Positions 2,835 to 15,045 of a DNA stretch of 64,000 nucleotides are shown here, one piece after another; position 1 is the first letter of the stretch; each line of letters begins with the position of its first letter. Origin of the DNA: Nocardioidaceae bacterium SCSIO 66511 (GTDB lineage: Bacteria; Actinomycetota; Actinomycetes; Propionibacteriales; Nocardioidaceae); assembly GCA_023100825.1 (NCBI GenBank), contig CP095846.1:2914001-2978000 (forward strand), given 5' to 3'. Under the pieces are notes generated by a model, which worked only from the letters and a program-made list of their open reading frames with translations, had not been told where the DNA came from and did no database searches. Position numbers and translations under genes: made by a program.

Positions 2835-3782
2835 CTAGGTGGCGTGGCCGTGGAGCCGGAGGCGGGCCAGGCCGCCGTCGGGGTAGACGTCGAGGCGTAC
2901 GTGGGTCGCTGGGGCGGCGCCGTCGAGCCAGAAGCGATGCGGGGTGTCGGGCTGCAGCCCGGTACGCGGCAGCAGCTCGAACCAGTCGCTGTCACCGTCT
3001 CGTCCGCTCAGACTTGCCCAACCGGGCGCATTACCGACGAAGTACGACGTGTCGAGCTCGGCACGACGTACGACTCCCCGAGCGGCGAGGCGTACGGTCA
3101 CGAAGTCGTTGCCGTCGTCGCGGCGTCGGGCGTTCTCCCAGCCCTCGCCCATGTGTCGGGCACGGTCGGGCCGGAGCAGGTTGGACGCCGAGCCGTAGAA
3201 GGCGTCCGAGCAGTCGACGACGCGGCCACCGAGGTCGGCGGCCGCCAGGTCGACCGTGGGTTCGAGCAGACGCGGGTCGGGAGTCGGTTCGCCGTGTACG
3301 CGCAGCCTGGCTACTCCCCCGTCGGGATAGATGGTCAGTCGTACGTGCGTGTAGCGTCGCGCATCGTCAACAGGGTAAGAGTTCTTGGCATCGCCTTCAG
3401 CGCTCGTCTTGTCGACGAGACTCACCCAGTCGGCAGCGCGTAGCTCGTCCGGCGACGGATGCCCATCGACGCTGGTCGCCTCGATGCTGACGTACGGCGG
3501 GAAGTTTCCTTTGAACCATGCGGTGTCGACGACGACCCCTCGCACGACGCCCGGCACACCCAACCGGACGACGGCGTGATCGCTGCCAGGCTCACGGCGC
3601 CGGCGAGTCTCCCAGCCGTCGTAGAGCTTGCCCTTGTTGCCGAACCGGCTCGGGTCGAATACCGCGTCGCCGGGCTTGATGAGGTTCTCCCGATCGGCGA
3701 ACAGTTCGTCGTTCGCGTACACGACGCCCGCGCCGAGCGTACGAGCAGCGAGATCCGGCTGGTTCGTGAAGTCGGCGGTCAT
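2835..3782 (-). CDS. alc: allantoicase
   Basis: A 315-residue cytoplasmic enzyme hydrolysing allantoate to (S)-ureidoglycolate and urea. It shows the family's two tandem jelly-roll repeats: each carries a YGSASNLL/DELFADRENL-type opening, a GW(E/G)xxRRR segment (GWETRRRREPGSD, GWENARRRDDGND), a hydrophobic strand ending in D(T)xxFxGN (DTAWFKGN, DTSYFVGN) and HVRLxIYPDGGxARLRxHG. Length is as expected. Its start overlaps the allB stop in a TGATG junction, so it is the last gene of the coupled uraH-uox-allB-alc operon. Its products need ureidoglycolate lyase and urease, neither of which is in the window. Confidence 0.96.
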   Translation of the reverse strand: MTADFTNQPDLAARTLGAGVVYANDELFADRENLIKPGDAVFDPSRFGNKGKLYDGWETRRRREPGSDHAVVRLGVPGVVRGVVVDTAWFKGNFPPYVSIEATSVDGHPSPDELRAADWVSLVDKTSAEGDAKNSYPVDDARRYTHVRLTIYPDGGVARLRVHGEPTPDPRLLEPTVDLAAADLGGRVVDCSDAFYGSASNLLRPDRARHMGEGWENARRRDDGNDFVTVRLAARGVVRRAELDTSYFVGNAPGWASLSGRDGDSDWFELLPRTGLQPDTPHRFWLDGAAPATHVRLDVYPDGGLARLRLHGHAT

Positions 3783-5122
3783 CCGTCTCCTCTGGCGATC
3801 AGGCGACCAGACGGGTCGCGGTCCTCATTGACGTGCGGCGTGATGTGCTCACCGCGCAGCCACGTACCGCGAACCACGCCAGCAAGCGTCGCACCGTCGT
3901 ACGGCGTGACCGGATGCCGATGATGCAACCGCCCTGCATCGACGACGAACTCCGCGTCGGGAGCGAAGACGCACAGGTCCGCGTCGAATCCCGGCTCGAT
4001 CCGACCCTTACGCGGCACACCGAAGCGGCTCGCGGGACGCTCCGCCATCCACCGAGCGACATCGACACGCGTGTGCCCACGGCGGCGTGCCTGTGTCCAG
4101 GTGATCGACAAACCCAGTTGAACAGAGGCGATCCCGCCCCATGCCGCACCGAAGTCGCCGGTGTCCAGGCATTTGAGGTCGGGCGTTGACGGTGAGTGGT
4201 CCGACACGACGAAGTCGAGTACGCCCGATCGCAGTAACTCCCACAGCCTCTCGGCGTTATCGCTGTCGCGAACCGGCGGGCAGCACTTGTACTCCGTGGC
4301 ACCGTCGGGCACCGCCTCGGCGCTGAGTGACAGGTAGTGCGGACAGGTCTCGGCGCTGAGGTCGACGCCGGACTCCTTTGCCCGCTTGATGGTCTCGAGG
4401 GTCTGCGCGCTCGAAACGTGCACGATGTGCGTACGCGCGCCCGTACGCGCAGCGGCTTCTACGACGTGCTCGATCGCGCGCACCTCTGCCTCGTCGGGCC
4501 GCGAGGCAAGGAAGTCTGCGTACGCGCGACCGCCCGAAGCGGGCGAAATCAACGCGGCGTCTTCCGCGTGTATGAGCAGCACCGAACCGACAGCTGCGAC
4601 CTCGCGCATGGCGCATTCGAGGTCGCCTAGCCCGAGCGGCGGAAACTCCGCGACACCCGAGTCGAGTAGAAATCCTTTGAAGCCGAACACCCCGTCGGCA
4701 GCCAGGCCGGCGAGCGCCGACTCGTTGCCCGGTATCGCGCCGCCCCAGAACCCGACGTCGACGAAGCACTGGCCTTCGGCCGCAGATCGCTTTATTTGCA
4801 GAGCATCTGAGTCACAGGCAGGCGGGATGCTGTTCAGGGGCATGTCGACGAGCGTCGTCACTCCCCCGGCCGCCGCGGCGCGGGTCGCTGACCGGAACCC
4901 TTCCCACTCGGTACGCCCGGGCTCGTTGACGTGTACGTGGGTGTCGACCAGCCCGGGCATCAACACCTCGTCGTCACCGAGGCGTACCTGCCGGTCGGCG
5001 TCGAGGTCGGCGTCGACCGGCTCAACTGCGGCGATCTGACCGCCACGTACGGCTACTGCTGCCGCACGCTCTCCGTCAGGCAGCACTGCCCGCGGCGCGT
5101 GGAACACCACGTCGTACGGCAT
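3779..5122 (-). CDS. allB: allantoinase
   Basis: A 447-residue cyclic amidohydrolase opening the hydantoin ring of allantoin to give allantoate. Metal-site motifs are visible: VDTHVHVNEPGRTEWEGF, KGFLLDSG with the lysine that becomes carboxylated, LLIHAEDA, HIVHVSSA, and DHSPSTPDLK, followed by the allantoinase-typical GAAWGGIASVQLGL. The ATG at 5122 is preferred to an in-frame GTG nine codons upstream because it overlaps the uricase stop in TGATG, the junction type used throughout this operon. Substrate preference rests on operon context plus the GGIASVQ segment, both of which favour allantoin over dihydropyrimidines. Confidence 0.95.
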   Translation of the reverse strand: MPYDVVFHAPRAVLPDGERAAAVAVRGGQIAAVEPVDADLDADRQVRLGDDEVLMPGLVDTHVHVNEPGRTEWEGFRSATRAAAAGGVTTLVDMPLNSIPPACDSDALQIKRSAAEGQCFVDVGFWGGAIPGNESALAGLAADGVFGFKGFLLDSGVAEFPPLGLGDLECAMREVAAVGSVLLIHAEDAALISPASGGRAYADFLASRPDEAEVRAIEHVVEAAARTGARTHIVHVSSAQTLETIKRAKESGVDLSAETCPHYLSLSAEAVPDGATEYKCCPPVRDSDNAERLWELLRSGVLDFVVSDHSPSTPDLKCLDTGDFGAAWGGIASVQLGLSITWTQARRRGHTRVDVARWMAERPASRFGVPRKGRIEPGFDADLCVFAPDAEFVVDAGRLHHRHPVTPYDGATLAGVVRGTWLRGEHITPHVNEDRDPSGRLIARGDG

Positions 5123-6027
5123 CAGCAGAAGCCCGGTGTCGAATGCCACGCACTGCCCGGGTCCGGCGCATCGTCGCGGATCACACTCGCCTCGATCAGT
5201 CCGTACGGACGGTCGGCGGCGATGAAGACCTCACCCGGGTTGTCTTCTCCGAACGGCGTCAGGTCGACGGCGAAATGATGCTTGTTGGGTGCTGAGAAGC
5301 GGATCTCCGCGACCTCCGGATGCCGCTCGAGCACTGCTTCGCCCATGTCGTACAGGCTCTGCTGCAGTGCACGGCTATGCCGCACGGCGAACACCTCGAG
5401 CAGATCATGCACGATCGCCGAATGGGTCAGATCCCAATCGACGTTGGTGTCTGCGTAGCGCCACCGTGCGACGAGCGAGGTCGCGAGGATGCGGTCGTCG
5501 GTCTCGGCGAGCGTCGTGTACTCGTCCTTCAAAAAGCCGCGGAACTCCGACCCGGTCGTCTTCGCGATCACCAAGTCGCTGAGGCCGGAGACGACCCACG
5601 TACGCCGATCATCGCCTCTACCTTCGACGTTGACGATCGTGTTGCGTACCGATTCGCCCGAGCGTACGAACGCGTGATCGTGTCCGCGGCCGTCGACGTC
5701 GATGCGCCGCCAGGCGTACTCCTCGACCTCGACCCGTGCTCCGGTTGCCTTCGGCACCTGGTCGACGAAGTGCTCGGCGAGAATCCGTGCGTACTCCTCG
5801 ATCGCTCCGACACCCTTCGACTTGGCGAACGCGAACGCGGTGTTTTTCTGCGTATCGGTCGGCAGCACACCTGCCTGGTCACCGCCGACATGAGCCGCGG
5901 TGAAGTCTCCGCGCAGTGCCGTCGACACGTTGAGGTCGCGGATGGAGTGCCGCGCGCCGTCGCGGTACACGCGTACGACGCGACTCTCCGCTTTGCCGTA
6001 CTGGTTGGGCCCGAGTGAGATACCCAT
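5122..6027 (-). CDS. uox: urate oxidase (uricase)
   Basis: A 301-residue cofactor-free uricase that oxidises urate with O2 to 5-hydroxyisourate and H2O2. Two tunnelling-fold halves are visible. Recognisable segments are GPNQYGKAESRVVRVYRDG, the active-site LPTDTQKNTAFAFAKSKGV (Thr of the T-D-T-Q-K-N motif), SGLSDLVIAKTTGSEF, and the C-terminal RFSAPNKHHFAVDLTPFG. Length is normal for bacterial uricases. Both ends overlap neighbours by TGATG: uraH upstream and allB downstream, so translation is coupled along the pathway order. No signal peptide is present. Confidence 0.97.
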   Translation of the reverse strand: MGISLGPNQYGKAESRVVRVYRDGARHSIRDLNVSTALRGDFTAAHVGGDQAGVLPTDTQKNTAFAFAKSKGVGAIEEYARILAEHFVDQVPKATGARVEVEEYAWRRIDVDGRGHDHAFVRSGESVRNTIVNVEGRGDDRRTWVVSGLSDLVIAKTTGSEFRGFLKDEYTTLAETDDRILATSLVARWRYADTNVDWDLTHSAIVHDLLEVFAVRHSRALQQSLYDMGEAVLERHPEVAEIRFSAPNKHHFAVDLTPFGEDNPGEVFIAADRPYGLIEASVIRDDAPDPGSAWHSTPGFC

Positions 6028-6362
6028 CAGCTACCCCTGTACGTCGAGTAGCCGAACGGGCTCAACAGCAGCGGCACGTGGTAATGCTGTTCGGGATCTC
6101 GAACAGCGAACGAGATCACCACCTCCGGGTAGAAACCGTCGGCGGCGGAGGTCGCGAAGTACGCGGCGGTGTCGAAGAGGATTCGGTACGTACCTGTCTC
6201 GGCGCGGTCAGGGCCAAGGTCCGCGACGCGACCGTCGGCGTCGGTGCGCCCCTCGCCGAGCGTCGTCGGCGCGGCACCGTCGAGCCGATCGAGCCGCACG
6301 GGCACTCCGGCGGCGGGTATCCCCGCTGCAGTGTCGAGAACATGCGTCGTGATCGCGCTCAT
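6027..6362 (-). CDS. uraH: 5-hydroxyisourate hydrolase
   Basis: A 111-residue transthyretin-like enzyme that hydrolyses 5-hydroxyisourate to OHCU. It begins MSAITTHVLDTAAGIPAAGVP (the His of THVLD is catalytic in the family) and ends with the diagnostic C-terminus LSPFGYSTYRGS; the second catalytic His lies in HYHVPLLLSP. The ATG at 6362 is preferred to an upstream in-frame start because GGGAG precedes it at a good distance and it matches the family N-terminus. It is the first gene of the uraH-uox-allB-alc operon; the 266 bp upstream (6363-6628) should hold the operon promoter. Confidence 0.96.
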   Translation of the reverse strand: MSAITTHVLDTAAGIPAAGVPVRLDRLDGAAPTTLGEGRTDADGRVADLGPDRAETGTYRILFDTAAYFATSAADGFYPEVVISFAVRDPEQHYHVPLLLSPFGYSTYRGS

Positions 6363-6628
6363 CGGCGGCTCCCTGGGTCTCGCGTGTCCAGTGCCGGACA
6401 GGCTACGCCCCATCGGGCCGACCGAGCGGCCTACCGTTGAACCGGCAGAATGCTCCAGTCGATATCGCCGGAGGTAACCGCTGCCGATGCACCCCGCGTA
6501 CCCCTCGACGATGCAAGCCGTGGATTCATGCTGACGCCCCTTCCCTGTTGAAACGGCACGGTTGTGCCGACGGGGCGATCATGCAGAGGGCCACTAACAA
6601 CCGACTGACTATCCGCTGTCAGCGGCGT

Positions 6629-7861
6629 CTACCGGCGAGCCAGGGCTTCCAGCTGCTCGCGATCCAGTGCGCATCGACGCCGTACGTCCTCGGCGGACGT
6701 CGCACCGCAGTCGAGCGCACGCAACACATATCCGGCGAGAGCCGCCGCGGTCGCCGGTTCGTCGAGATAGGCCGAGGAGTCGTCGCCGGCGTACGCGCGG
6801 AGGCGATGCAGCGCCCCGGGCAGATCGGCGGCGAAGTACGCGTACACCGCCGCGTACCGGCTGGGCAGCTGGCTCGGGTCGAGATCCCAGCCCTGGTAGA
6901 TCCCACGGGACAGAGACCTTCGTACCAGCCGGGAATGCAGCCGCCAGGCCGCGCGGATCGCGTCGGTGTCGCCGACGGGCAGAATGTTGGTCGATCCGTC
7001 GGAGATCGCGACCCCAGTCTGCGCGGCGGCCACCTGCATGACCGCTTTGGCATGGTCGGCAGCGGGATGGTCCATGCTCTGCTCTGCTGCGGCTATATCG
7101 AGCGATGCCGAGTAGTCGTACGTGCCGTAATGCAGGCCGACGCAACGACCCCGGGCCGCATGGATCATCGGCGCCACCAAGGCACGCCCGTCGGGCCCGA
7201 GCACGGCCTGCGGGGTCTCCACCTGGATCTCGAACCGCAACGCTCCGTCGTTCAGCCCGTACGCGTTCTCGATCGACTCGGATGCGTACACCATCGCCTC
7301 GACCTGGGCGACCGATGTGACCTTGGGAAGCGTGACTCGGAAGCCGTCGGGTACGGACCCGAGCTCGCGTACGAACAGGTCGAGCGTGCGGAGTCCGCGA
7401 TATCGCGTCGCCGCCTCGAAGCTCTTGAAGCGGATGCCGGCATACGGCGGCGCCGTATGCGCGTCGAGCATGGTTCGCAACGCGTGAGCCGCACTTCGTA
7501 CCTGGTCGTCCTCGACCTCGTCGGGATAGGTGCCGTAGCCGTCCTCGAAGTCGATGCGAAGGTCCTCGATCGGCTCATGCGTGAGCTTCTCGACAACCCG
7601 CTCGTACGCAACGAGGTCGGGGTCGAGATCCAGCGCCCCGGCCAGAACCGAGCGGTGCGGAGCATGGTGCGTCAGCTTGGAGATGGAGCGTTCGCTCCAC
7701 TCCGCGACGAGCCCGGCGTGGACCCGATCGGCGGGCACGTAGACGGTGTGCACCGGCTGCCGCCCACCGCTGTGCCCTGGAAAGCGCACCGCGTAGTCGC
7801 GGTCGTCGATCGCAAGACGCGAGTCGAGCTCGGCGGCGAGCCGGTCGAGATGGTCGGTCAC
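6629..7861 (-). CDS. HpcH/HpaI aldolase / citrate-lyase-like TIM-barrel protein (DUF6986 type)
   Basis: A 410-residue protein resembling the C-C lyase TIM barrels of the HpcH/HpaI and citrate lyase beta family. Visible segments are LRIDFEDGYGTYPDEVEDDQ (acidic, probably metal-binding), RVTLPKVTSVAQVEAMVYAS, the strand RFEIQVETPQAVLGPDGRAL with the conserved Glu, and CVGLHYGTYDYSASLDIAAA. Such proteins recur beside purine-degradation genes in actinobacteria as I recall. The chemistry is not established; glyoxylate or ureidoglycolate made by allantoicase is a reasonable substrate guess. It starts with GTG, only 18 bp from the divergent uraD start. Family assignment is good, function open. Confidence 0.8.
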   Translation of the reverse strand: MTDHLDRLAAELDSRLAIDDRDYAVRFPGHSGGRQPVHTVYVPADRVHAGLVAEWSERSISKLTHHAPHRSVLAGALDLDPDLVAYERVVEKLTHEPIEDLRIDFEDGYGTYPDEVEDDQVRSAAHALRTMLDAHTAPPYAGIRFKSFEAATRYRGLRTLDLFVRELGSVPDGFRVTLPKVTSVAQVEAMVYASESIENAYGLNDGALRFEIQVETPQAVLGPDGRALVAPMIHAARGRCVGLHYGTYDYSASLDIAAAEQSMDHPAADHAKAVMQVAAAQTGVAISDGSTNILPVGDTDAIRAAWRLHSRLVRRSLSRGIYQGWDLDPSQLPSRYAAVYAYFAADLPGALHRLRAYAGDDSSAYLDEPATAAALAGYVLRALDCGATSAEDVRRRCALDREQLEALARR

Positions 7862-7879
7862 ATGATGGAGACTAGTGCG

Positions 7880-8410
7880 ATGGTTGTACGAATGGACCTC
7901 GACCGGCTGAACTCGACACCGGCCGACGATCTGCGCCCGGTGCTACACGCTGTCTGCTCAACGACGCACTGGGTCGACGCGATGATCGACGGGCGGCCGT
8001 ACGCGACGGCCGATGACGCCTACGAGCGCTCCGACGAAGCCGTTGCGGCGCTCGACGATGAGGCACTGGAGGCGGCGCTCGCCGGGCATCCGCGCATCGG
8101 TGACCGGCCTGCGGGCAAGCACGCCGCGTGGTCGACCAGCGAACAGGCGACCATGTCGGATGCCGCCGAAGACATCGCAGCGCAGATCCGCGACGGCAAC
8201 CTCGCGTACGAGCAGCGGTTCGGCCACGTGTACCTGGTCTGCGCGAGCGGCCGGAGGCCGGAGGAGCTGCTGGCGATCCTGCGTAGTCGGCTCGACAACG
8301 AACCCGCCGACGAGCACGCAGTCGTTCTGAGTGAGCTGGCGGCGATCAACCGGCTGCGGCTGACCCGGCTGGTCGAGCCGACGGATGAGGCGGACGTCCC
8401 CGGCCGGTGA
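7880..8410 (+). CDS. uraD: OHCU decarboxylase
   Basis: A 176-residue 2-oxo-4-hydroxy-4-carboxy-5-ureidoimidazoline decarboxylase, which makes (S)-allantoin from the UraH product. Family landmarks are CSTTHWVDAMIDGRPY, the substrate-site AGHPRIGDRPAGKHAAWSTS (His and the PRIG loop), EQATMSDA, and YEQRFGHVYLVCASGRRPEE. The ATG at 7880 is chosen over that at 7892 because GGAG lies ten bases upstream of it. It is divergent from the HpcH-like gene (18-bp gap) and ends four bases from the convergent pucR stop. It completes the urate-to-allantoin steps with uox and uraH. Confidence 0.95.
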   Translation: MVVRMDLDRLNSTPADDLRPVLHAVCSTTHWVDAMIDGRPYATADDAYERSDEAVAALDDEALEAALAGHPRIGDRPAGKHAAWSTSEQATMSDAAEDIAAQIRDGNLAYEQRFGHVYLVCASGRRPEELLAILRSRLDNEPADEHAVVLSELAAINRLRLTRLVEPTDEADVPGR

Positions 8411-8414
8411 ACCG

Positions 8415-9947
8415 TCACCTGCGCGATCGCAGCGCCAGGAAGACGTCGACCCGATCGGGCAGCCGGGACAGGTCGCGGCCCGTGAGCGCCTCGACCCGAG
8501 CGATCCGGTAGCGCACCGTGTTGACGTGCAGGTGGAGTCGCTGCGCCGTACGGTTCCACGAACCCGAGCTGTCCAGGAACGTGTTCAGGGTCGTGAGGAG
8601 CTCGCCGTCGTGCGCCTCGTCGTACGCGAGCACAGGCCCGAGCACCCGGTGAGCGAAGAGCCGACGCACCTCGTCCGGCACCGTCGCCAGCAGCAGTACG
8701 TGGGAGTCGACCTCGCGGCCCGCGACGACGCTCACCCGATCGTCGCCGACGGCGGCGAGGCGGTACGCGTGTAAAGCCTCCTCGAGCATCCCGGAGAGGC
8801 CCGCGATCGCCGTCTCCTCGCTGATCCCGACTGCGAGCCTGCGGCCGGCAAGCCCCGGCGCAAGTCGGGCCAGCGCCGCCGCGATCGGCCGCTCGCTGCC
8901 CGTCCGGGCCGCCGGTACGACGACGACGGTCTCCTCTTCGGGAGTCTGCGCGACGATCGCGCCCTCCAGCGTGCCGAGCACGTCTTCGGCGAGCAACCGC
9001 GACTCCGCCGGATCGCCGGTCGCGCCGAGGCCGAGCACCACCACGACGTACGCAGCGGCCCGCAGGTCGAGCCCGGCTTGTTCGAGCCGTACGCCGACCT
9101 CGGGCTGGTTCGTCATACCGGCGGCGATCATCCGGATCGCGTCGTCGGCGAGTGGGCGGGCAGCCGTGCGCCGCTCGTCGATCCGCGTCCGCTCGACCTG
9201 CACGATCGTGGCCAGCTCGTCCAGTGCGTCGTCGACGAGATCGCGGTCGGCATCGGCAGTGACCTGCGCGACTAGCATCCACGAGGTGAGTCGCGAGCCG
9301 CGGGCACGTACGACGGGTTGCACGACGTACGCCGAATCGATCTCGACCGGTAGCCGGTCGGCGGCGAGGTATCCGGCCACGAGACCGTCGACGACCGATG
9401 CGGGCAAGGCGTCAGCGCCGGCGACCGGAGCACCGCCGGCCGTCAGCACTCGCAACTGCGCATGTAGCTCGGCACCGACCCGAGCGAGCAGATCGTCGAG
9501 GCTCGCGCCGCGGGCAAGCGCGGAGAGGAGATCGCGATTCCGGCCGAGCCGTGCCTCCAGCCGGGCACCTCGCTCGGCGGCGGCCGCCCCGATCACGTAC
9601 TCGGTGAGCGAGCTGAACGAAACCTCCTCGGGTACGGCGAGCAGGGCGATGCCGTGGCGCCGGCAGGCATCGACGACGTCGGCGGGCACCTCGCCGAACT
9701 GCGCCGTGCCCGCCGCGATCGCGAGAGCGCCCGCCTCCGCGAGATGTGCGACGAACACCTCGCTGTCCGCCGGGCTCCGGCGCCAGACCAGGCCGGTGAT
9801 CACCAGCTCGCCGCCGAACAGGTACCGGCGTGGATCCAGTAGGTCCGATGAGTACGTCCAGCGCACCGGTCGGTCCAGCGCCTCGTCGTCGGAAACGACC
9901 AGCCGCAGCGCCAGCTCGGGTACCTCCAGCAGATCGCGTAGCCGCAT
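8415..9947 (-). CDS. pucR: PucR-family transcriptional regulator of purine catabolism
   Basis: A 510-residue regulator. The N-terminal PucR domain (about residues 1-125) begins MRLRDLLEVPELALRLVVSD and includes TYSSDLLDPRRYLFGGELVI; a central GGDEF-like region follows, and a C-terminal HTH_30 (PucR C) domain, LNTFLDSSGSWNRTAQRLHL then HVNTVRYRIARVEALTGRDL, occupies about 445-500. It lies between the degradative genes and the divergent xanthine dehydrogenase operon, 106 bp from the latter's start, the usual place for the activator of this pathway. I saw no convincing palindromic box in that gap. Confidence 0.93.
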   Translation of the reverse strand: MRLRDLLEVPELALRLVVSDDEALDRPVRWTYSSDLLDPRRYLFGGELVITGLVWRRSPADSEVFVAHLAEAGALAIAAGTAQFGEVPADVVDACRRHGIALLAVPEEVSFSSLTEYVIGAAAAERGARLEARLGRNRDLLSALARGASLDDLLARVGAELHAQLRVLTAGGAPVAGADALPASVVDGLVAGYLAADRLPVEIDSAYVVQPVVRARGSRLTSWMLVAQVTADADRDLVDDALDELATIVQVERTRIDERRTAARPLADDAIRMIAAGMTNQPEVGVRLEQAGLDLRAAAYVVVVLGLGATGDPAESRLLAEDVLGTLEGAIVAQTPEEETVVVVPAARTGSERPIAAALARLAPGLAGRRLAVGISEETAIAGLSGMLEEALHAYRLAAVGDDRVSVVAGREVDSHVLLLATVPDEVRRLFAHRVLGPVLAYDEAHDGELLTTLNTFLDSSGSWNRTAQRLHLHVNTVRYRIARVEALTGRDLSRLPDRVDVFLALRSRR

Positions 9948-10053: not shown

Positions 10054-10923
10054 ATGGATTTCACCTGCCCACGAACGTGGGCCGAAGCCCTCGAAGCGAA
10101 GGCGGCAGACCCCGAAGCCGTTCCGCTCTGTGGGGGCACCGACGTCATGGTCGAGATCAACTTCGACCACCGGCGGCCGCCTGCCCTTCTCGATCTGACG
10201 AGGGTCGCCGAGCTGCAGGGTTGGAGCGACCGCGACGGTCGTGTCGTACTCGGTGCCGGAGTCACGTACGCGCGGATCATCGACGAGGCCGGAAAACGGC
10301 TACCGGGCCTCGCGATGGCCGCGCGTACGGTCGGCTCGCCGCAGATCCGCAATCGCGGCACCGTCGGCGGCAACCTCGGCGCCGCATCCCCCGCCGGAGA
10401 CTCCCACCCACCGCTGCTCGCCACCGACACCGTCGTCATCGTCGAGTCGATACGCGGCGAGCGCCGGATCGGCATTGCCGACTTCTACACGGGCGTCAAG
10501 CGCAACGCCTTGCAGCCGGACGAGCTCATCCGCGAGATCGAGATCGCCGTGCCATCGGGCCCGCAGCAGTTCTGCAAGATCGGTCCACGCAACGCGATGG
10601 TCATCGCGGTCGCGGCCTTCGGTCTCGCGCTCCACCCCGACTCTCAACGCGTCGGCACCGGGGTCGGATCAGCGGCGCCGACTCCGCGGCGGGCGAGCGA
10701 GGCCGAACGCTTCCTCGCCGACGAACTCGCCGAGCGCCGCCTCTGGGAATCCCGCGGCGAGCTGCCCGCATCCGTCGTCGACGAGTTCGGGCGCCGGGTC
10801 CAGCAGGTTGCCGACCCGATCGACGACGTACGCGGCACCGCCGACTACCGGCGTCATGCGGTCTCCGTCATGGCCCGCCGCGCGCTCACCTGGGCGTGGA
10901 CCGACTACCGGAAGGCCGCCTGA
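10054..10923 (+). CDS. xanthine dehydrogenase FAD-binding subunit
   Basis: A 289-residue medium (FAD) subunit of a three-subunit molybdenum hydroxylase. The FAD-binding pattern is clear: VPLCGGTDVMVEINFDHRRP near the N-terminus and RTVGSPQIRNRGTVGGNLGA about residues 91-110, followed by the CO-dehydrogenase flavoprotein C-terminal domain. ATG follows a strong GAGGAGG (10043-10049). The gene overlaps the next by TGATG. In the complex it passes electrons from the 2Fe-2S subunit to NAD+. It opens the xanthine dehydrogenase operon divergent from pucR. Confidence 0.94.
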   Translation: MDFTCPRTWAEALEAKAADPEAVPLCGGTDVMVEINFDHRRPPALLDLTRVAELQGWSDRDGRVVLGAGVTYARIIDEAGKRLPGLAMAARTVGSPQIRNRGTVGGNLGAASPAGDSHPPLLATDTVVIVESIRGERRIGIADFYTGVKRNALQPDELIREIEIAVPSGPQQFCKIGPRNAMVIAVAAFGLALHPDSQRVGTGVGSAAPTPRRASEAERFLADELAERRLWESRGELPASVVDEFGRRVQQVADPIDDVRGTADYRRHAVSVMARRALTWAWTDYRKAA

Positions 10924-11396
10924 TGCGCGTCACCACGAACGTCAACGGAGCGCCGGTCGAGATCGACGACGTCTGGGAAGGCGAGAGCCTGATGTACGCG
11001 CTGCGCGAGCGCGCCGGCCTACCCGGCTCGAAGAACGCCTGTGAGCAAGGCGAATGCGGCTCATGCACCGTCTACCTCGACGACGTACCCGTATGCTCCT
11101 GCCTGGTCGCAGCCGGTCAGGCTGAGGGGCGCGACGTACGTACGGTCGAGGGCCTCGCCGATGGCACAGACCTCAACGGCGTCCAGCAGGCATTCCTCGA
11201 TGCGGGCGCAGTGCAGTGCGGATTCTGTACGCCCGGCCTACTCGTCGCGGCACACGATCTGATCGCTCGGGTGCCCGACCCGAGCGACCCGGAGATCCGC
11301 GAGGCGCTCGCCGGCAACCTCTGCCGGTGCACCGGGTACGAGAAGATCCTGCAGGCCGTACATCTCGCGGCAGACCGCTCAGGAGCCGCACAATGA
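10923..11396 (+). CDS. xanthine dehydrogenase 2Fe-2S subunit
   Basis: A 157-residue small subunit with two 2Fe-2S clusters. The N-terminal plant-ferredoxin cluster is CEQGECGSCTVYLDDVPVCSC (about residues 41-60). The second, all-alpha cluster uses AVQCGFCTPGLLVAA and AGNLCRCTGYEKIL. It relays electrons between molybdopterin and FAD. The ATG overlaps the previous stop (TGATG) and the gene's own stop overlaps the deaminase start (ATGA), indicating stoichiometric, coupled translation. Confidence 0.96.
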   Translation: MRVTTNVNGAPVEIDDVWEGESLMYALRERAGLPGSKNACEQGECGSCTVYLDDVPVCSCLVAAGQAEGRDVRTVEGLADGTDLNGVQQAFLDAGAVQCGFCTPGLLVAAHDLIARVPDPSDPEIREALAGNLCRCTGYEKILQAVHLAADRSGAAQ

Positions 11397-12760
11397 TCGT
11401 GATCGAGGGCGCGTACGTCGCAACGGTCGATGCGGATCGCACGGAGCACACCGTCGGCCATGTCGTCATCGACGGCAACCGGATCACCGCAGTCGGCCCC
11501 GGTCCCGCGCCCGCCGACGTACGAGAGCAGGCGGAGCGCGAGGGAAGGCTCGTCGACGGAACCGGCTGCCTCGTCACACCCGGCCTCGTGAACACCCACC
11601 ATCACCTCTACCAATGGGTCACGCGCGGGCACGCGGTCGACGACCCGTTGTTCGGCTGGCTGACCGAGTTGTACCCGGTATGGGCGGGCATCGACGAACG
11701 CGCAGTCAACGTCGCCGCGTCGGCGGGTCTCGCCTGGCTCGCGCGTACCGGCTGCACGACGAGCACCGACCACCACTACGTCTTCCCCGACGAGGGCGGC
11801 GACGTGTTCGCCGCGGAGGTCGATGCCGCGCGCAATGTCGGACTGCGGTTCCATCCCACCCGCGGTTCGATGGACCTCGGCGCGAGCCGCGGCGGCCTGC
11901 CGCCCGACAACGTGGTCGAGAGCCCGGACGCGATCCTGCAAGCCACGCAGGCAGCGATCGACCGCTGGCACGACCCGGCACCGGACTCGATGTTGCGCGT
12001 CGCGGTCGCCCCGTGCTCTCCGTTCTCGGTGACCGCGGTGCTGATGAAGGAGTCGGCGTCCCTCGCCCGCGACAAAGGCGTGCTCATGCACACCCACCTC
12101 GCCGAGACGTCCGACGAGGATGCCTACTGCCGGGAGCGTTTCGGCTGCTCACCGCTCGAGTACGTCGAGGATCTCGGCTGGTCGGGCGACGACGTCTGGT
12201 ACGCACACGGCATCTGGTTCGACGACGACGAGATCGAGCGCATCGGACGTACGCGTACCGGCGTTGCTCATTGCCCGTCGTCCAACGCAAGACTCGGGGC
12301 CGGAATCGCGCGCGCACGCGACCTTCGCGATGCGGGCGCCCGGGTCGGGCTCGGGGTCGACGGTGCGGCAAGCAACGAGGCGTGCAGCCTCGTCGAGGAG
12401 CTGCGGCACGCCGTGCTCTTCGCTCGCGAACGCGGAGGGCCGCAAGCACTCGCCGTGCGCGACGCGCTCGAGATGGCGACCTTCGGGGGGGCCGCCATTC
12501 TCCGCCGCACCGACGACCTCGGCTCGATCGAGCCCGGCAAGCTGGCCGACCTCGCCATGTGGCGTCTCGACACGATCGCGCACGCAGACATCGACGACCC
12601 GGTCGCAGCGCTCGTGCTCGGCTCCGCGCCGCCGGTCGAGCTCTTGGTCGTCGACGGGCAGATCGTGGTCGAGCAGAATCGCACCGTCACGGTCGACGAA
12701 GACGCCCTCGCCCGCGACGCCGAATCCGTCCATCACGAGCTCCTACGGAAGACGCCATGA
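11393..12760 (+). CDS. 8-oxoguanine deaminase (amidohydrolase)
   Basis: A 455-residue amidohydrolase of the guanine/8-oxoguanine deaminase and hydroxyatrazine-hydrolase type. Metal ligands are seen in TPGLVNTHHHLYQWVTRG, LMHTHLAETSDED, YAHGIWFDDDEIE, and GLGVDGAASNE (Asp). The sequence GCTTSTDHHYVFP is typical of 8-oxoguanine deaminases. It converts 8-oxoguanine to urate directly, so it feeds the same pathway as xanthine dehydrogenase. Both ends overlap neighbours by ATGA, inside the xdh operon. Guanine as substrate cannot be excluded. Confidence 0.88.
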   Translation: MIVIEGAYVATVDADRTEHTVGHVVIDGNRITAVGPGPAPADVREQAEREGRLVDGTGCLVTPGLVNTHHHLYQWVTRGHAVDDPLFGWLTELYPVWAGIDERAVNVAASAGLAWLARTGCTTSTDHHYVFPDEGGDVFAAEVDAARNVGLRFHPTRGSMDLGASRGGLPPDNVVESPDAILQATQAAIDRWHDPAPDSMLRVAVAPCSPFSVTAVLMKESASLARDKGVLMHTHLAETSDEDAYCRERFGCSPLEYVEDLGWSGDDVWYAHGIWFDDDEIERIGRTRTGVAHCPSSNARLGAGIARARDLRDAGARVGLGVDGAASNEACSLVEELRHAVLFARERGGPQALAVRDALEMATFGGAAILRRTDDLGSIEPGKLADLAMWRLDTIAHADIDDPVAALVLGSAPPVELLVVDGQIVVEQNRTVTVDEDALARDAESVHHELLRKTP

Positions 12761-15045
12761 CGTCGACACCGACCGCCGCTCCTCCCCGTACGCGTGGAGG
12801 TGTCGGCGACAGCGCCGCCCGCCCGGACGGCACTCTCAAGGTCACCGGCGAGTTCGCGTACGGCTCCGATCTGTGGATGGACGGCATGCTGTGGGGCGTC
12901 ACGCTGCGCAGCCCGCACCCGTACGCGCGCATCGCCTCGGTCGACATCGGCCCGGCACTCGCAATGACCGGCGTGTACGCCGTGCTGACGCACGACGACG
13001 TGCCCGGCCACAATCGGGTCGGCCTCGAGTTCGACGACCAGCCGGTACTGGCCGAAGACGTCGTGCGCTACCAGGGTGAGGCCGTGGCACTCGTCGCCGC
13101 AGACCATCCCGAGACTGCGCGACGAGCGGCCGACGCGATCGTCGTTTCGTACGACGTGCTCGACCCGATCACCGATGCCGAGGCGGCTTTGTCGCCCGAC
13201 TCACCGCGACTGCACCCAGACGGCAATGTAGTAAGGCATCTGAAGCTGCGCACCGGCGAACCCGAGCCGACCGCGCCCGTCGTGGTGAACCTCGACTTCG
13301 AGGTCGGCATGCAGGACCAAGCGTTTCTCGGGCCCGAATCGGGGTTGGCGATCCCCGCCGAAGACGGTGGGGTGGACCTGTTCGTCGCGACGCAATGGCT
13401 GCACGTCGACCAACGCCAGGTGTGTGGTGCACTCGGACTGCCCCCTGAGAAGGTTCGGCTGAGCCTTGCCGGGGTCGGCGGTGCGTTCGGCGGCCGCGAG
13501 GACCTCTCGATGCACGTGCACGCCTGCCTGCTCGCGATGCACACGGGAAAGCCCGTGAAGATGGTCTACAACCGCGAAGAGTCCTTCTTCGGCCACGTTC
13601 ACCGTCATCCGGCGAGGCTCTCGTACGAGTTCGGCGCCGACGACACAGGGCGATTGGTCTACGGTCGCGCACGGATCGTGCTCGACGGCGGAGCGTACGC
13701 CTCGTCGACGACTGCGGTGGTCGGCAACGCCGGCACGCTCGGGCTCGGCCCGTACCGCTTTCCGAGCGTGCACGTCGATGCGTACGGCGTCTTCACGAAC
13801 AACCCGCCCTGCGGCGCGATGCGCGGATTCGGCTGTGTGCAAGCCGCGTACGCCCATGAGGCACTGATGGATGAGCTCGCCGCACGTGTGGGGCTGTCGC
13901 CGATCGAGGTACGCGCACTCAACGGCATGCGCGAAGGCGACCGCAACATCACCGGCCAGCTGGTCGACTCCGCGGCGCCGTGCGAGGAGCTCGTCTCACG
14001 TGTCGCGGCGATGCCGTTGCCGCCTGCACTCGAAGACGATCCCGACCTGCTGTCACTGCCCGGCGGCGTCGCGAACACCACGCACGGCGAGGGTGTCGTA
14101 CGCGGCGTGGGCTACGCGCTGACGTACAAGAACGTCGGCTACTCCGAGGGCTTCGACGACTACTCGACGGCGCGCATCCGGCTCGAAGGAGTCGCGGGCG
14201 AGCCCGTGGCCACGGTGCACACAGCCGCCGCCGAGGTCGGGCAGGGGCTCGTCACCGTCCAGCAGCAGATCTGCCGCACCGAACTCGGCGTCGAGCGCGT
14301 CGTCGTACACGCACAGGACACCGCCGTCGGCTCAGCGGGATCAACGTCCGCATCGCGCCAGACCTACGTCACCGGAGGCGCGGTGAAGGCTGCCTGCGAG
14401 GCGGTCCGCACCCGGGTCTTGGCGCGTGCCGAGGCATTGACCGGGGCCGCGGCCGACACTCTGCGGCTCGAGGGCGGCAAGGTTGTCGGTGACTCTGTGG
14501 TTGCCGATCTCGTAGACCTGCTTGACGATCCGGTCGAAGACACTGTCGAGTGGCGGCATCGCCCTACGTACCCGATCGATCCGGAGACCGGGCAGGGCGA
14601 TGCGCATGTGCAATATGCGTTCTCTGCGCATCGTGCCGTGGTCGATGTCGATACCGACCTGGGTCTCGTCAAGGTCATTGCGCTCGACACGGCGCAGGAT
14701 GTCGGCACCGCGGTCAACCCCGATGCCGTGCTCGGCCAGATCCAGGGCGGTGCAACCCAGGGCATGGGCCTCGCCCTGATGGAGGAGATCGTCGTACGCG
14801 ACGGGCAGATCGTGAACCCGTCGTTCACCGACTACCTCATCCCGACCATCCTCGACACACCGCCGATGCGCATCGAGCTGCTGGAGAACCCCGATCCGCA
14901 TGCACCGTACGGCGTCCGCGGCGTCGGCGAGCCGCCGACGATCTCGTCAGGGCCGGCCGTCACGGCAGCGATCCGCGCGGCGACCGGCCTGCCCGTACGC
15001 CGAGTGCCGATCCGGCCCGAACACCTGGCGCTCCCCGGGGCTTGA
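12757..15045 (+). CDS. xanthine dehydrogenase molybdopterin-binding subunit
   Basis: A 762-residue large subunit that binds the Mo-pterin cofactor and oxidises hypoxanthine/xanthine to urate. Typical segments are DGTLKVTGEFAYGSDLWMDG and LRSPHPYARIASVD (the a/b hammerhead), then AGVGGAFGGREDLSMHVHAC (cofactor loop), NPPCGAMRGFGCVQAAYAHE (active-site Arg), EVGQGLVTVQQQI, and APYGVRGVGEPPTISSGPAV containing the catalytic Glu of the GVGE motif. It starts in the stop of the deaminase gene (ATGA) and ends the operon. About 80 bp downstream a repeat element begins. No molybdenum hydroxylase maturation factor (XdhC type) lies in the window. Confidence 0.95.
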   Translation: MTSTPTAAPPRTRGGVGDSAARPDGTLKVTGEFAYGSDLWMDGMLWGVTLRSPHPYARIASVDIGPALAMTGVYAVLTHDDVPGHNRVGLEFDDQPVLAEDVVRYQGEAVALVAADHPETARRAADAIVVSYDVLDPITDAEAALSPDSPRLHPDGNVVRHLKLRTGEPEPTAPVVVNLDFEVGMQDQAFLGPESGLAIPAEDGGVDLFVATQWLHVDQRQVCGALGLPPEKVRLSLAGVGGAFGGREDLSMHVHACLLAMHTGKPVKMVYNREESFFGHVHRHPARLSYEFGADDTGRLVYGRARIVLDGGAYASSTTAVVGNAGTLGLGPYRFPSVHVDAYGVFTNNPPCGAMRGFGCVQAAYAHEALMDELAARVGLSPIEVRALNGMREGDRNITGQLVDSAAPCEELVSRVAAMPLPPALEDDPDLLSLPGGVANTTHGEGVVRGVGYALTYKNVGYSEGFDDYSTARIRLEGVAGEPVATVHTAAAEVGQGLVTVQQQICRTELGVERVVVHAQDTAVGSAGSTSASRQTYVTGGAVKAACEAVRTRVLARAEALTGAAADTLRLEGGKVVGDSVVADLVDLLDDPVEDTVEWRHRPTYPIDPETGQGDAHVQYAFSAHRAVVDVDTDLGLVKVIALDTAQDVGTAVNPDAVLGQIQGGATQGMGLALMEEIVVRDGQIVNPSFTDYLIPTILDTPPMRIELLENPDPHAPYGVRGVGEPPTISSGPAVTAAIRAATGLPVRRVPIRPEHLALPGA

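Follow-up and report, generated by a model that had tools for sequence, protein, structure and literature searches.

Which enzyme takes over once allantoicase has acted is the question raised by a urate-degradation cluster of Nocardioidaceae bacterium SCSIO 66511, whose gene content leads from xanthine to ureidoglycolate and urea. The cluster lies in a 64,000-nucleotide stretch of contig CP095846.1 (assembly GCA_023100825.1, positions 2,914,001 to 2,978,000), which we refer to in full as the window and whose coordinates we use throughout. An initial annotation of the window had singled out one open reading frame (ORF) in the cluster as an HpcH/HpaI-like lyase that might carry out the missing step after allantoicase, acting on either glyoxylate or ureidoglycolate. 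Here we report that this ORF encodes a member of the DUF6986 family, which is probably a metal-dependent, coenzyme A (CoA)-independent ureidoglycolate lyase catalysing the EC 4.3.2.3 reaction, and a non-homologous counterpart of AllA. The reaction that we infer, in its substrate, products, metal and mechanism alike, is the conversion of (S)-ureidoglycolate to glyoxylate and urea.

6629–7861, minus strand: DUF6986 protein, predicted ureidoglycolate lyase on the basis of co-occurrence (410 amino acids, GTG start; PF22484, E = 4e-160).

Profile searches confirmed the ORF, which runs exactly from 6629 to 7861 and matches PF22484 (DUF6986) over nearly its full length (profile positions 5–405 of 408; 533.6 bits, cut-off 27, E = 4e-160). 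Its product also exceeds the cut-off of the HpcH_HpaI family PF03328 of the CitE-like superfamily (29.9 versus 25 bits) and, together with the predicted malyl-CoA-lyase-like barrel described below, this bears out the HpcH/HpaI-like TIM barrel of the initial annotation. The window protein reaches 16.1 bits with the malate synthase barrel model PF01274, under its cut-off of 26.4, and 34.6 bits with the NCBIfam malyl-CoA lyase model NF041626, for which the cut-off is 500; the AllA/DAL3 family PF04115 gave no match to it at E 0.01. Among the five plasmid records found with DUF6986 genes, three call the product an ‘aldolase/citrate lyase family protein’ and two leave it nameless. Residue 328, in a WDLHP motif, is Asp in the window protein and His in 47 of 48 aligned members.

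The pathway gap was delimited by searches of the whole genome (one contig, 4,609,448 bases). Neither the AllA family PF04115 nor the urease alpha subunit PF00449 was found anywhere in it, and we therefore rejected an AllA encoded elsewhere in the genome as the ureidoglycolate lyase. Outside the window, the genome does encode a malate synthase (G000:C1:3185025-3185762, E = 1.6e-109), at a distance of about 0.26 Mb from the DUF6986 gene. Of the three enzymes that had been listed as missing, ureidoglycolate lyase and urease are thus absent genome-wide for the families searched, but malate synthase is absent from the window only. Because PF04115 is lacking and malate synthase is not, the gap concerns ureidoglycolate cleavage and not the use of glyoxylate.

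The distribution of DUF6986 follows that of the enzymes that make ureidoglycolate. We analysed a class-level sample of 177 actinomycete genomes, counting DUF6986 at E 1e-60 or better, ureidoglycine aminohydrolase at 1e-40 and allantoinase at 1e-105, all cut-offs of our own choosing, and defined as producers the genomes with allantoicase or ureidoglycine aminohydrolase, since both routes yield ureidoglycolate. Seventy genomes are producers, 57 by allantoicase and 13 by the aminohydrolase, with no overlap. DUF6986 occurs in 67 genomes, comprising 66 of the 70 producers compared with 1 of the 107 others (Fisher P = 1.6e-42, uncorrected for kinship). Counted by genus, it is present in 29 of 30 producer genera versus 0 of 47 others (P = 2.3e-20), and each of the 16 families (f labels) that hold a producer has DUF6986 in at least one producer genome. 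Allantoinase alone is insufficient to predict DUF6986, which was found in 64 of 67 allantoinase genomes with a producer and in 1 of 13 without. By producer type, it accompanies allantoicase in 53 of 57 genomes and the aminohydrolase in all 13; as none of these 13 has allantoicase, DUF6986 follows the shared product and not one particular enzyme. The association extends to position, DUF6986 lying within 17 kb of the aminohydrolase gene in 13/13 genomes and within 30 kb of the allantoicase gene in 27/53. PF04115 was detected in three of the 177 genomes: a stronger match in G280, where producer and DUF6986 are both absent, and weak matches in G268 and G293, where both are present.

A phylum-wide sample of 198 genomes, partly the same as those of the class sample and therefore not wholly independent of it, gave a similar picture at a stricter threshold (E < 1e-100). 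Some DUF6986 match at 0.001 was present in 77 genomes, those beyond the 17 counted being weak and CitE-like; G013, in which a small contig holds short fragments (best E 1.9e-14), was not counted. DUF6986 was found in 17 genomes, allantoicase in 18 and both in 15; G008 and G085, which have DUF6986 but lack allantoicase, encode the aminohydrolase. PF04115 was detected in 4 of the 198 genomes, none of them among the 18 with allantoicase or the 17 with DUF6986. The proposed place after allantoicase is thus well supported by co-occurrence with either route to ureidoglycolate, although the initial interpretation is on the whole only partly supported, its two substrates being unequal.

The gene neighbourhoods bear on what happens to the product. 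We examined the best 80 of 575 confirmed relatives; counts of flanking genes come from ORF clustering and are lower bounds, and flanks were shorter than 10 kb on some contigs. A purine or ureide gene is present in the flanks of 52 of the 80 loci. In 23, a gene for malate synthase A (its representative named by TIGR01344) lies directly upstream of DUF6986 on the same strand, and glyoxylate carboligase (TIGR01504) is encoded in the fetched flanks of 11. With two unrelated producers of ureidoglycolate and two unrelated users of glyoxylate around the gene, the step common to these arrangements is the conversion of ureidoglycolate to glyoxylate. On a Tsukamurella plasmid (L125 9977-12069), DUF6986 overlaps by 4 bases the next gene, annotated as a bifunctional allantoicase/(S)-ureidoglycine aminohydrolase, in a set that also holds genes for xanthine dehydrogenase, guanine deaminase and allantoinase. 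A Paenarthrobacter plasmid that was typed as conjugative (L126 11950-13227) carries a DUF6986 gene that adjoins an NCS1 symporter gene and is near a gene of the polysaccharide-deacetylase family.

These neighbours also bear on the alternative that DUF6986 substitutes for malate synthase, acting on glyoxylate and an acyl-CoA. It shares its fold and site residues with malyl-CoA lyase and malate synthase, and a malate synthase is missing from two of the 17 DUF6986 genomes of the phylum sample (G045 and G162), the sole weak PF01274 match of G045 being the DUF6986 gene itself, which leaves room for a role in glyoxylate use there. The other 15, however, have a malate synthase above the cut-off, and DUF6986 tracks the makers of ureidoglycolate and not the users of glyoxylate generally. 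Because malate synthase A is encoded directly upstream in 23/80 loci, glyoxylate carboligase is nearby in 11/80 and the genome of the window has a malate synthase of its own, we disfavour glyoxylate plus acyl-CoA among the two substrates that had been offered and favour ureidoglycolate. We consider substitution for malate synthase unlikely and, given that gene upstream in these loci and its presence in this genome, rejected it as the principal explanation, while keeping it as an alternative on account of G045 and G162.

A structural model provides a rationale for ureidoglycolate as the substrate. The model, predicted from 48 sequences, has a mean pLDDT of 93.9 and a pTM of 0.90. Its best VIA-align match is 4l9y, the malyl-CoA lyase of R. 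sphaeroides with Mg, glyoxylate and propionyl-CoA (Z 27.7, root-mean-square deviation 2.7, 290 aligned residues, 18% identity); other malyl-CoA lyases and human CLYBL tie within 1 of this score, and the top row from Foldseek is 3qqw, a putative lyase from Ralstonia eutropha. A single-sequence search for a solved homologue returned one chance-level match (E = 0.55), and an alignment-based search returned two malyl-CoA lyases (E = 2e-4 and 2.6e-4). In the profile alignment, in which we matched the residues ourselves, D104, E106, D107, R144, E215 and D249 pair with Asp42, Glu44, Asp45, Arg76, Glu141 and Asp168 of malyl-CoA lyase, which are described as holding Mg, its waters and the substrate (PMC3832036). 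The D104-x-E106-D107 motif, R144, E215 and D249 are invariant in 16/16 sequences of one alignment (the window protein and 15 of the 16 other full-length members of the phylum sample, L015 being left out for an internal stop) and in 48/48 of another (the window protein and 47 of the 80 loci, chosen for spread and whole ends). Alignment to malate synthase A with hhalign covers 77 central columns (E = 0.0003, probability 39.8), a shared segment with LPK, ETP/ETI and DY motifs; longer alignments with this enzyme include the lid region without confidence. The C-terminal lid of the CitE-like superfamily carries a catalytic acid, an Asp or in some members a Glu; in DUF6986, a C-terminal DEPAT motif (residues 367–371, with D367 and E368) resembles by eye the MEDAAT motif of malate synthase A.

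Ureidoglycolate and malyl-CoA have their 2-hydroxy acid in common, the former carrying a urea nitrogen in place of the acyl-CoA carbon, and malyl-CoA lyase cuts the bond next to its Mg-bound 2-hydroxy acid to leave Mg-bound glyoxylate. The same retro-addition at a C–N bond would thus yield urea and glyoxylate and would not require CoA. In such a mechanism, the carboxylate and 2-hydroxyl of ureidoglycolate would chelate a Mg2+ ion bound by Glu215 and Asp249, Glu106 and Asp107 would engage waters, and Arg144 would accept the 2-hydroxyl proton. The C–N bond would then break by retro-addition while an acid from the lid protonates the departing ureido nitrogen; this would be Asp367 or Glu368 if DEPAT is the lid. 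The Mg-bound glyoxylate left behind, as in malyl-CoA lyase, could pass to malate synthase or glyoxylate carboligase. The earlier label ‘C–C lyase-like’ fits the relatives of DUF6986 but not the reaction proposed here, which breaks a C–N bond. A co-occurrence profile names the metabolite and not the bond that is cut, and DUF6986 could handle ureidoglycolate in another way, by ammonia-releasing hydrolysis, by racemization or by channelling it to another enzyme. We regard this as improbable, since the conserved site suits the making or breaking of a bond beside a Mg-bound 2-hydroxy or 2-oxo acid and the glyoxylate-using neighbours need the product of a lyase or an amidohydrolase.

Taken more broadly, we think it fairly likely that DUF6986 represents a second, unrelated ureidoglycolate lyase family, serving most ureide-degrading Actinomycetota, in which the Mg-glyoxylate site of the malate synthase type has moved from CoA-dependent C–C chemistry to CoA-independent C–N cleavage.

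Several points weigh against the assignment of DUF6986 as a ureidoglycolate lyase. The activity is predicted from profile and context, known relatives of DUF6986 use CoA thioesters, and the match of the lid motif was made by eye, hhalign having left DEPAT and the lid unaligned. Ureidoglycolate also decays spontaneously, so that an enzyme may assist the step without being essential to it. The co-occurrence counts are uncorrected for kinship beyond the genus level, and they have exceptions in both directions. The two genomes with DUF6986 and no malate synthase are a separate point against the assignment. Three class-sample genomes of one genus (G038, G074 and G321) encode allantoicase but no DUF6986 protein, as do G038, G074 and G086 in the phylum sample. 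A fourth allantoicase genome of the class sample, G210, has no intact DUF6986 gene; a 33-residue piece on another contig (L127 303-401) looks like a decayed one. Conversely, G314 carries DUF6986 and no producer was found in its assembly, which consists of about 850 contigs and is 93% complete. In G074 and G321 (L116 and L119), one allantoicase gene is followed by a polysaccharide-deacetylase-like gene, whose product we take to be a PuuE-type allantoinase, and the ureidoglycolate enzyme of these genomes may belong to yet another family. Four ORFs near one allantoicase of G038 (L118) were scanned and gave no lyase candidate; two further allantoicase loci (L117 and L120) were compared by tblastn only.

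The remaining point of this kind is positional: by clustering, 28 of the 80 loci have no purine gene nearby, 15 of them in Streptomyces, and in 14 of those 15 DUF6986 sits beside etfA or etfB with flanks free of purine genes. Such electron-transfer flavoprotein genes (etfA and etfB by our own labels), away from allantoin genes, adjoin DUF6986 in 15 loci, these 14 of Streptomyces and one of Actinacidiphila, as follows.

Loci with DUF6986 adjacent to etfA or etfB: L046, L058, L061, L068, L088, L089, L091, L096, L099, L102, L105, L107, L111, L113 and L114.

On the strength of these 15/80 loci, DUF6986 might serve another pathway, represented by the etfBA loci of Streptomyces, its tie to ureides being a by-product of shared ancestry and ureidoglycolate either decaying alone, as it is able to do, or being cut by some other enzyme. 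Such a pathway would be hard to reconcile with the presence of DUF6986 in only 1 of 107 genomes without a producer, or with the 14 DUF6986 genomes of genus g3 (presumably Streptomyces), all of which carry allantoicase elsewhere in the genome, and we give it little credence. Ureidoglycolate cleavage by DUF6986 remains our preferred explanation.

Within the window, the gene map confirms that the DUF6986 gene is placed inside the urate pathway cluster and is divergent to uraD, as the initial annotation had described. The other genes of the cluster are as follows.

2835–3782, minus strand: allantoicase, converting allantoate to ureidoglycolate and urea (TIGR02961, 379.8 bits, cut-off 277.9).
3779–5149, minus strand: allantoinase AllB (TIGR03178, 549.1 bits, cut-off 357.85).
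5122–6027, minus strand: urate oxidase (uricase; TIGR03383, 336 bits, cut-off 168.4).
6027–6413, minus strand: 5-hydroxyisourate (HIU) hydrolase (TIGR02962, 136.6 bits, cut-off 87.45).
7862–8410, plus strand: OHCU decarboxylase, uraD (TIGR03180, 169.6 bits, cut-off 139.4, match from residue 16).
8415–9947, minus strand: PucR-type regulator (PF07905 and PF13556).
10077–11396 and 11614–15045, plus strand: ORFs for xanthine dehydrogenase parts (Fer2/Fer2_2 and MoCoBD domains; TIGR03196, pucD, over cut-off).

The true start of uraD may be at 7892, and the likely starts of the divergent DUF6986 and uraD genes (7861–7892) are separated by about 30 bases or fewer. With so short a gap, the promoters of the two genes must overlap or sit in coding parts, and leaderless messages are possible. 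In the two xanthine dehydrogenase ORFs, no Pfam family matched (at E 0.01) the long N-terminal stretches of about 285 and 410 residues; translation may begin further downstream, or these stretches may contain an unrecognized domain. An AAA_14/DUF4143 ATPase gene at 1458–2708 adjoins the cluster, with no evident link to it.

If the assignment is correct, it provides a domain of unknown function with a role, fills a gap stated in print for Arthrobacter sp., and completes the recycling of purine nitrogen in Streptomyces, Nocardioides, Kribbella and Arthrobacter, among others. It would also mean that one barrel and one metal site perform retro-additions at C–N as well as C–C bonds. Full-text literature searches, in which subscription journals are thinly covered and an earlier report may have escaped, returned no paper on ‘DUF6986’ and none linking ureidoglycolate with the aldolase, malyl-CoA lyase or citrate lyase families.

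DUF6986 can be compared with several known systems. With the malyl-CoA lyases and CitE-like proteins (PF03328) it shares the fold and the six residues for Mg, water and substrate, but it differs in the roughly 61 residues between its P43 and D104 motifs, in its tie to ureide genes and in a doubtful use of CoA. With malate synthase A it shares the segment of LPK, ETP/ETI and DY motifs, although it falls under the PF01274 cut-off and is encoded right next to that enzyme in 23/80 loci. The UGL of Burkholderia cenocepacia has likewise been proposed as a ureidoglycolate lyase non-homologous to AllA; unlike DUF6986, it belongs to the FAH family. One report doubts the role of the Burkholderia enzyme and describes AllA/DAL3 as a urea-releasing, nickel-dependent enzyme with a cupin fold (PMC3793230). 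DUF6986 is proposed to catalyse the same reaction as AllA/DAL3 (PF04115, EC 4.3.2.3) in the same place between ureidoglycolate makers and glyoxylate users, yet the two have no sequence match, and the nickel cupin contrasts with a predicted TIM barrel with a Glu/Asp metal site. In the order of steps given for Escherichia coli in PMC10163214 (AllB, AllC, AllE and AllA, followed by Gcl, GlxR and GlxK), DUF6986 would, by analogy, occupy the place of AllA.
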